DNA of 64,000 nt from NCBI GenBank assembly GCA_013151235.1, contig JAADIO010000005.1, positions 62,001 to 126,000 on the forward strand, read 5' to 3'. Below the pieces are notes generated by a model, which worked only from the letters and a program-made list of their open reading frames with translations, ran no database searches and was not told the origin of the DNA. Origin of the DNA: Deltaproteobacteria bacterium. Lineage in GTDB: Bacteria > CG2-30-53-67. The position numbers were made by a program, and so were the translations under genes. Below, in pieces: positions 40,862 to 42,653 of this stretch. Numbering within the stretch: position 1 is the stretch's first letter; each line of letters opens with the position of its first letter.

Positions 40862-41061
40862 GATGGTGTCGTAAAAAGTCACGAAGCCCTTCGGCTGGCT
40901 CAGGACCGGCCCTTCGACATACTCAGGAGAGCCGTGCTCAGGGCGAACGATGTAAGTTGTTGATATTCCGTTCGTGTGTTTCGGAAAGTTTAATGGACCG
41001 TTCGTGGTGAGCCTGTCGAACCATGAACGGAATTCGGAAAACGACTTTTTACGACTTCATC
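40862..41061. repeat. Short inverted-repeat element, family B copy 1
   Basis: 200 bp. Terminal inverted repeats GATGgtGTCGTAAAAAGTC and the complement of GATGaaGTCGTAAAAAGTC. The interior is rich in inverted TTCGACA/TTCGTGGTGAGC motifs of the kind common in environmental proteobacteria. Related to 47354-47485. Flanks carry a near-direct repeat (CAAGAA/AAAGAA). No coding gene. Confidence 0.75.
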
Positions 41062-41096: not shown

Positions 41097-41159
41097 CGCT
41101 TCCCTACATCTCAACTTCCTTCCAGTCCACACTGGGTAGCTAAACAGCAGTCCGGTGCT

Positions 41160-41456
41160 TCAAACCGCTCTATGATTTCGTTCCAGAATACGGGCGATTG
41201 CATCCTCCTCACTCGATGCGGAGACGATTCCCATCTCACGGATCTTTGCAGAGCAACCCGGACGCTGCTGCCCGTCAAGCACCCATTGCGGAACAACCTT
41301 GCCCCGATCGGTCAGTTTCTTTTCCAGAAGCCGGAGGACCTCCGGCGAATGGCGAAAACCTCAACCGGAGAAATTCTGTTGCATGCTCCGGGCAAGGATG
41401 AAATAAACACCGCCGTAGAGAAGACCGACAGCAAGAATGATATAGAGCAATAACAT
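41160..41456 (-). CDS. Small membrane protein, candidate novel selenoprotein (in-frame UGA as Sec32)
   Basis: Gene of 98 codons, not recognised as a known family. ATG at 41456 lies 3 nt after the MBL-hydrolase stop and has GGAGG 8 nt upstream. Residues 2-22 form one membrane helix (LLLYIILAVGLLYGGVYFILA). The frame then meets TGA at 41361-41363 (codon 32; ...NFSG-UGA-GFRHS...) and stays open for 66 more codons with codon choice like neighbouring genes, ending at 41160. The downstream part is amphipathic and charged (EVLRLLEKKLTDRGK, SSEEDAIARILERNH) with one Cys. A GGU-loop hairpin lies at the expected distance for a SECIS (41330-41346). Alternatives: a true stop giving a 31-aa peptide, or a point mutation from a Cys or Trp codon. 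Confidence 0.6.
41330..41346 (-). promoter_or_regulatory. Candidate bacterial SECIS hairpin of small membrane protein
   Basis: In the mRNA, GCCGGA pairs with UCCGGC (six pairs; a seventh G-C can close) around the loop GGUCC. The loop starts 21 nt after the UGA, about the same spacing as in the E. coli formate dehydrogenase H element, whose loop also carries GGUC. Confidence 0.6.
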
Positions 41457-41459
41457 GAT

Positions 41460-42149
41460 TCAGACCTCCATGGTTTCTCCGAATGTCAGGGAGCGGACCG
41501 TGATTCCCACGGACTCGGCCTCCCTCCGAAACAGGTCGGAATTCTCCGTCAGGACCGGAAAGGTCCCGTAATGCATGGGAATCACCAGCCCCGCTTTCAG
41601 AAAGCGGGCGGCATGGAGGGCATCCTCCTCTCCCATCGTATAATTTCCGCCGATCGGCAGCAGAGCCACATCGATCCGGTTCAGCTCTCCCAGGAGTTTC
41701 ATCTCCATCGAAAGCCCGGTATCCCCGGCATGATAAATCGTCTTTCCCTCCATTTCGATCAGGAACCCGCAGGGATTCCCGGTGTAGATCATCCCTTTGG
41801 AATCCGGAAAGCCCGACCCGTGAAGAGCGGACGTCAGTTTCACCAACCCGAAGGGGAAATTGAAACTCCCGCCGATATGCATCGTATGGACCTGCTCCGC
41901 ACCCTGCCGTTCACAGAAGAGCCCCAATTCAAAGGGGGCGATGATCGTCGCCCGGTTCCGGGCGGCAATCTCCACGGCATCCCCCAAGTGATCGGGGTGC
42001 CCGTGGGTGACCAGGACAAAATCGACCTTAACCGCCTCCGGAGCGATCGGCGCATTCGGATTGTCCCGCAGAAAGGGATCGACAATCAGTCGGGAGCCGC
42101 CCCCTTCAATGAGGAAACAGGAATGGGAAAGATAGGTCAATTGAATCAT
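41460..42149 (-). CDS. UPF0173-type metallo-beta-lactamase-fold hydrolase
   Basis: Predicted metal-dependent hydrolase of 229 aa (UPF0173/UlaG-like). The metal motif THGHPDHLGD is intact, with further ligands in YHAGDTGL and the final IPMHYGTFP. Substrate unknown. The gene is followed 3 nt later by the small UGA-containing membrane protein and preceded by an uncharacterised gene 15 bp upstream, so all three probably share a transcript. Confidence 0.88.
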   Translation of the reverse strand: MIQLTYLSHSCFLIEGGGSRLIVDPFLRDNPNAPIAPEAVKVDFVLVTHGHPDHLGDAVEIAARNRATIIAPFELGLFCERQGAEQVHTMHIGGSFNFPFGLVKLTSALHGSGFPDSKGMIYTGNPCGFLIEMEGKTIYHAGDTGLSMEMKLLGELNRIDVALLPIGGNYTMGEEDALHAARFLKAGLVIPMHYGTFPVLTENSDLFRREAESVGITVRSLTFGETMEV

Positions 42150-42164
42150 CGTCCACCTTTCGGA

Positions 42165-42653
42165 TTACGCCGTTGCCGTCAGAGTCAGAATCTGGTGAAG
42201 GGCATCCCGAGATCTCAGTTTTCCCTCCGATCGATTTTCAATCAATCCCGAAAGTTTCTGAACCATGGAAACCGTGGGTGACCAGGTGAACTCGTTCTGG
42301 AAACGCCGTTCCTTGAACCGCTTCGCCGCATCAATGACGTTTTCCTTCTCCTCACCCGGCAGAGGACGGACGGACGCCAGTTCAGCCGTCAATTGTTTTC
42401 GCTTCTCCCGAAATTTCGGATCGAGAGATCCCTGCGGTGTCAACTGACAACGTCGGAATTCGATGGCACGCACCTTCTCCGGCCTGGCTTTCCGAAAATG
42501 CAGATGGACAATCGCAATCCGGATGATCCGTCCTCCCAACTCCGGGAAGGCCTTCGAATCTTCTTCAGACAGAAACCGTTCATAAGTGTCGGCATCTACC
42601 TCGGAAAAAAGTCCTTCTTCATTCAACCGGAAAACCCATTTTCTGTTTTTCAT
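42165..42653 (-). CDS. Conserved-looking protein of unknown function
   Basis: Protein of 162 aa, not recognised. N-terminus MKNRKWVFRLNEEGLFSEVD, a central beta segment (GRIIRIAIVHLHFRKARPEKV) and a helical charged C-terminal half (about 80-160). No signal peptide, cysteine cluster or membrane helix. Likely cytoplasmic. It is the first gene of the run leading to the MBL hydrolase and the candidate selenoprotein. Confidence 0.7.
   Translation of the reverse strand: MKNRKWVFRLNEEGLFSEVDADTYERFLSEEDSKAFPELGGRIIRIAIVHLHFRKARPEKVRAIEFRRCQLTPQGSLDPKFREKRKQLTAELASVRPLPGEEKENVIDAAKRFKERRFQNEFTWSPTVSMVQKLSGLIENRSEGKLRSRDALHQILTLTATA

Follow-up and report, generated by a model that had tools for sequence, protein, structure and literature searches.

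A probable undescribed family of small membrane-anchored selenoproteins in Nitrospirota and one candidate phylum

SelB-dependent selenoproteins of the formate dehydrogenase (FDH) type combine an in-frame UGA, an in-frame downstream hairpin whose apical loop has a GU at 18-21 nt, and a host genome that carries selB and tRNA-Sec. The gene described here shares these features with them, and differs in that its product is no molybdopterin enzyme, has one membrane helix and is without detected homology to known families. The eukaryotic proteins SELENOK and SELENOS have a similar design, being small single-pass membrane proteins with one selenocysteine (Sec) in the exposed part, near the C-terminus, and a eukaryotic-type SECIS; in the new family the Sec comes directly after the helix, and no sequence relation to the eukaryotic proteins was found or is claimed. 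Catalogues of bacterial selenoproteins hold mostly thioredoxin-like enzymes found via Sec/Cys homology, and a 2026 review lists 119 prokaryotic families (PMC13188914). Three domain-less families are reported from deep-Sep, in Desulfosediminicola and Desulfosarcina, with DG and DF found in Desulfosediminicola (PMC12013277). The families OS_HP3-5, GOS_B/C, DG, DW and DF (PMC13188914, PMC12013277) resemble the new one in combining Sec/Cys exchange and a SECIS with the lack of a known function, but no match to their profile families came from Pfam or NCBIfam release 20, and the Sec motifs given for them, such as GUxG for DG, are unlike its own.

The window, which is the whole stretch of 64,000 nucleotides that was analysed, contains on its minus strand a reading frame that starts with ATG at 41456, reaches an in-frame UGA as codon 32 after 31 codons, and then stays open for 66 codons to a TGA. 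The earlier note had given the correct positions for this gene, 41160-41456, and had left the minus strand unstated. The features of the locus are as follows.

41160..41456, minus strand: putative selenoprotein gene, 98 aa including Sec32, stop TGA at 41160-41162 (translation, homologues, dN/dS)
41361..41363, minus strand: UGA codon 32, probably read as selenocysteine (same-column UGA in 26 other genes, Cys in 9)
41330..41346, minus strand: putative SECIS hairpin GCCGGA-GGUCC-UCCGGC, loop 41336-41340, apical GU 41338-41339 (identical in three species)
41373..41453, minus strand: predicted transmembrane helix, residues 2-28 (AlphaFold2 helix, and a hydropathy peak at residues 2-20)
41253..41255, minus strand: codon of Cys68, which may pair with Sec32 (35/36 family members have Cys in this column)
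41465..41469, minus strand: GGAGG, likely ribosome-binding site (sequence)
41460..42149, minus strand: upstream metal-dependent hydrolase, UPF0173/PRK00685, metallo-beta-lactamase (MBL) fold (NF001911, 279.9 bits, cut-off 144)
42165..42653, minus strand: 162-aa gene beside the hydrolase, without Pfam or NCBIfam family, syntenic in G001 and G005
41104..41139, minus strand: remnant of a small gene, LPSVDWKEVEM* (comparison with the relatives' downstream gene)

Read from 41456 to 41160, the translation is MLLLYIILAVGLLYGGVYFILARSMQQNFSGUGFRHSPEVLRLLEKKLTDRGKVVPQWVLDGQQRPGCSAKIREMGIVSASSEEDAIARILERNHRAV*. The hydrolase ends with TGA at 41462-41460 and the ATG follows 3 nt past it, with GGAGG at 41469-41465, in agreement with the ribosome-binding site and start beside the hydrolase stop that had been proposed. 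The small gene left as a remnant encodes in full about 86-88 aa without known family and follows the selenoprotein gene in G001, G005 and G002; it is deleted here. Downstream of the remnant, at about 40873-41060 of the window, intergenic repeat-like palindromic sequence (CTTCGGCTGGCTCAGGACCGG.., GTTCGTGGTGAGCCTGTCGAACCATGAACG) was seen by eye.

The frame past the UGA carries a coding signal. In comparison with the nearest relative, L018, dN/dS is 0.19/0.90 before the UGA and 0.16/0.87 after it, and conservation starts at the codon right after the UGA, where there is no start codon. Silent changes are absent from the eight hairpin codons (dS ~0) vs a dS of 1.15 for codons 12-65 after the UGA in the same comparison. 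Because dN/dS is low and the silent sites of the hairpin are frozen, the sequence past the UGA is protein-coding with the hairpin additionally kept, and the description of the in-frame UGA followed by 66 coding-like codons stands.

Another 26 genomes, two from the host's candidate phylum and 24 from that of 'Nitrospirae' GWC2_57_9, have a homologue whose UGA falls in the same column. In all 27 UGA genes read the interrupting codon is UGA, never UAA or UAG. Nine genes are uninterrupted and have Cys exactly at the UGA column (9/9 non-UGA members), so that both kinds of homologue which the earlier note had proposed to look for at codon 32 exist; an early concern that all homologues had UGA and none Cys was lifted by a wider profile search. 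In the close relatives G001 (71% identity) and G005 (about 59%) the gene recurs with its UGA in the matching column and again follows the hydrolase. The member from 'Nitrospirae bacterium GWC2_57_9', which came from an alignment-based scan of genome contigs, has the UGA in a different gene neighbourhood, in a genome that contains selB. A sequencing error at 41361-41363 (TGC or TGG misread as TGA), named earlier as a possible refutation, is very unlikely because the same TGA recurs in independent genomes. The first search yielded 16 members in the GWC2_57_9 phylum among 396 genomes, and a 19-row family profile has matches in 36/312 sampled genomes of the Nitrospirota-type phylum; the family is thus not rare there. 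A single-sequence scan of genome contigs and an alignment scan of viral contigs gave no match, and L030, a ribulose-phosphate epimerase, and L071, a methyltransferase, matched weakly and were rejected as false. In a midpoint-rooted tree of 71 columns, the Cys forms fall on one branch (100/98) amid UGA forms, a placement consistent with a single Sec-to-Cys change.

The host genome (2.6 Mb) contains a single true selB (422.6 bits, cut-off 242) and a single true tRNA-Sec (73.3 bits, gathering 47), so that selB and selC, two of the four genes named in the earlier note's machinery check, are present; by eye, no obvious selA or selD adjoins selB or selC in this genome. All 8 genomes analysed from the host's small candidate phylum have tRNA-Sec. 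Across 396 genomes, with tRNA-Sec counted at E<=1e-11, it is present in 21/24 genomes with the UGA form vs 139/372 others (Fisher p=1.3e-6). Two of the three UGA-form genomes lacking a tRNA-Sec match have a full selB and the third has a partial selB where a contig ends, while genomes with the Cys form have tRNA-Sec in 7/9 cases and none in 2/9.

The hairpin GCCGGA/UCCGGC with loop GGUCC, which the earlier note had pointed out, is located at 41346-41330 and lies within published bacterial SECIS limits (PMC13188914). The apical GU comes 21 nt downstream of the UGA, and the energy of the hairpin, with the loop at 21 nt, is -12.9 kcal/mol, the published bacterial model having a limit of -7.5 kcal/mol (PMC13188914). 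As a null, downstream codons were recoded synonymously with local codon usage, which is a better hairpin test than dinucleotide shuffles; against the latter, plain fold energy gave an unconvincing z of -1.9 for this gene. The hairpin is stronger than expected under synonymous recoding in two tests (p=0.004 and p=0.013), and combined p-values, which count related sequences as independent, are 1e-7 for 19 UGA genes and 2e-4 for ten representatives, and 3.6e-8 for 27 UGA genes vs 0.33 for the 9 Cys genes. The best hairpin of each gene averages -7.2 kcal/mol among UGA genes vs -1.9 kcal/mol among Cys genes (Mann-Whitney p=0.001, again uncorrected for relatedness).

The GU at the apical loop position is invariant (19/19 aligned sequences) and stays in the loop as the stem register differs by clade, from GCCGGA/UCCGGC in this gene to CGCCGG/CUGGCG in L040 and CCCCUG/CAGGGG in L042. 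Compensatory changes occur at two pairs in one clade, where G-C becomes A-U in L037 and, at the other pair, the G-C of some members is reversed to C-G in L034; covariation in that one clade is modest, 29/500 shuffles being equally high. The energy limit of -7.5 kcal/mol is reached by 15/27 UGA members, with 12/27 falling short; L106, a UGA member, has no qualifying hairpin, and a 51-nt segment of L019 has a different fold at minimum energy. Given the modest covariation in one clade and the 12 members short of the energy limit, the case for the hairpin is clear in this gene and in the main clades, though not in each member. An Rfam scan of the window returned no RNA family.

The conserved UGA/Cys column, the host machinery and the conserved hairpin all support the selenocysteine reading of the UGA, as far as comparison of sequences can. 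If the UGA were an ordinary stop, the gene would encode a 31-residue membrane peptide, and the downstream frame would be a pseudogene or a gene with a start of its own. The 31 codons before the UGA do have a good ribosome-binding site, and G002 (L020, 1430-1686, plus strand) has the post-UGA part alone as an open frame, with the UGA and the membrane helix gone; that copy still has the hairpin GCCGGA-GGTTC-TCCGGC and is apparently a recent truncation. We consider a stop very improbable, as conservation without a start begins at the next codon with dN/dS of ~0.2, nine homologues read straight through with Cys, and every one of the 27 interruptions is UGA. Lineages that recode UGA occur among uncultured bacteria, and decoding as another amino acid (a Trp or Gly code) or general readthrough would also open the frame. 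Both the MBL gene and the selenoprotein gene itself end in TGA, however, selB and tRNA-Sec are present, and the residue that replaces UGA is Cys in 9/9 cases, which leaves such a code scarcely credible. The gene is most probably a true selenoprotein of an undescribed family, at a probability that we put at roughly 0.92 for the selenoprotein-family claim and not for function.

With strong comparative support, SelB carrying Sec-tRNA would bind the hairpin just past UGA-32 and selenocysteine would be inserted. The product would consist of a single N-terminal membrane helix, a Sec lying at the membrane surface, a short domain of helices that includes P56 and W58, and another Cys 36 residues further on. 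An AlphaFold2 model (mean pLDDT 76) is all helical, with helices at 2-28, 38-50, 57-64, 68-74 and 83-96 and a pLDDT of ~93 over residues 1-20; its first helix and the hydropathy peak agree on the N-terminal membrane helix that had been suggested. Across the 36 aligned members, position 32 is always U or C, P56 and W58 never vary, Y14 and G52 are each kept in 35/36, and the Cys at the C68 column lies 32-36 residues after the Sec/Cys (36 in this protein). No PDB fold matched the model at E<=0.001, a PDB sequence search gave no match, and the test for a thioredoxin fold found no CxxU or UxxC motif. Most UGA forms have more positive charge after the helix than before it, which by the positive-inside rule suggests that the Sec domain is cytosolic; for the Cys forms the charges are ambiguous.

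The gene neighbourhood gives partial clues to function. The proposed link to a metallo-hydrolase holds as adjacency and shared direction in three species of the candidate phylum, the hydrolase-selenoprotein order being the same in L018 and L019, but other neighbours stand in its place elsewhere and it is not a functional constant. MsrA (PF01625) lies directly upstream and ends within ~100 nt in L037, L038, L040 and L041, and L105 has an MsrA-MsrB fusion beside it in head-to-head orientation, giving MsrA adjacency at 5/36 loci (the PF01625 scans covered L037, L038 and L105, and the remaining two have nearly the same sequence). Since MsrA is usually one or two genes per ~3000, chance is an unlikely cause of its presence beside the gene in two or more unrelated clades, by our own estimate and not by computation. 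L044 has a CcdA-like gene before it and a DsbA-like gene after it, and the varying other neighbours include PmbA/TldD, PilZ-like, infC and MBL hydrolase genes. The MsrA and CcdA-like/DsbA neighbours (five loci and one, respectively) point to thiol redox or methionine-sulfoxide repair. The adjacency in five Nitrospirota genomes likewise suggests a process in common with the MsrA/MsrB repair systems; the new protein is itself not an Msr, having no PMSR or SelR domain. A direct partnership with MsrA is not straightforward, because the adjacent MsrAs have signal-peptide-like N-termini whereas the Sec domain is placed in the cytosol.

Sec32 and Cys68 could form a selenenylsulfide-type redox couple, the protein acting as a membrane-anchored thiol reductant. 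A role in oxidised-protein repair (methionine-sulfoxide reductase and related thiol relays) is the likeliest that we can name, and we offer it tentatively: Sec with its distal Cys may be a minimal membrane electron relay for methionine-sulfoxide or thiol repair in many uncultured Nitrospirota and the candidate phylum and, on one branch, in a Cys version. It is also quite possible that a real selenoprotein serves here outside redox repair, with Sec binding metal or selenide or having a structural or signalling part. Very small proteins with a single helix commonly belong to larger membrane complexes as subunits, and the diversity of neighbours, from PilZ-like and PmbA/TldD to infC and the MBL hydrolase, would suit such a role; a redox pair is the best fit for the Sec/Cys exchange and for another Cys at a constant distance, and the MsrA and CcdA/DsbA neighbours also speak against a non-redox role. 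That a selenoprotein family already named was overlooked by the profile searches is unlikely, even though short membrane proteins score weakly in profiles and DG and DF (PMC12013277) were judged through NCBIfam models only. The Sec and Cys forms gave no family above cut-off in Pfam, NCBIfam or PHROGs, and several subtypes gave no credible match up to E=10 in NCBIfam release 20 and Pfam. DG and DF (NF049953, NF049942) gave no match in NCBIfam release 20, within which those two models were not confirmed; DG and DF come from Desulfosediminicola (PMC12013277), whereas the new family is found in Nitrospirota and one candidate phylum. The catalogue of 119 prokaryotic families holds no recognisable match and describes none as a small single-helix membrane protein (PMC13188914). 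The earlier claim of novelty is supported as far as the comparison with Pfam, NCBIfam, PHROGs and PMC13188914 reaches, and an uncurated record elsewhere, outside these libraries and this catalogue, is possible.

Gene callers can easily miss a membrane-anchored family whose members have 65-100 residues, because the UGA splits the gene into two tiny frames. The family would provide a new minimal Sec...Cys membrane module whose chemistry is directly testable, and a natural set of Sec/Cys orthologs for asking what selenium brings.

A few profile matches span the N-terminal 28-37 positions only, and the three that were read (L121, L122 and L123) are shorter Cys relatives, membrane proteins of ~46-62 aa that share ..FYYGFKNWxPxCGGKS.. 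and have Cys in the column of the Sec; G410 has both this short form and the UGA form in one genome. Many UGA members, namely L035-L041, L047, L048, L104 and L105, have a TGA stop immediately after the conserved terminal Cys (..SC*), stops in the family being mixed TGA/TAA/TAG. After the selenoprotein gene, L047 and L120 encode a conserved small protein (NMTVEEL..ELKRLKDNLCD.E.MHSFTF.KTS.HIGSE).
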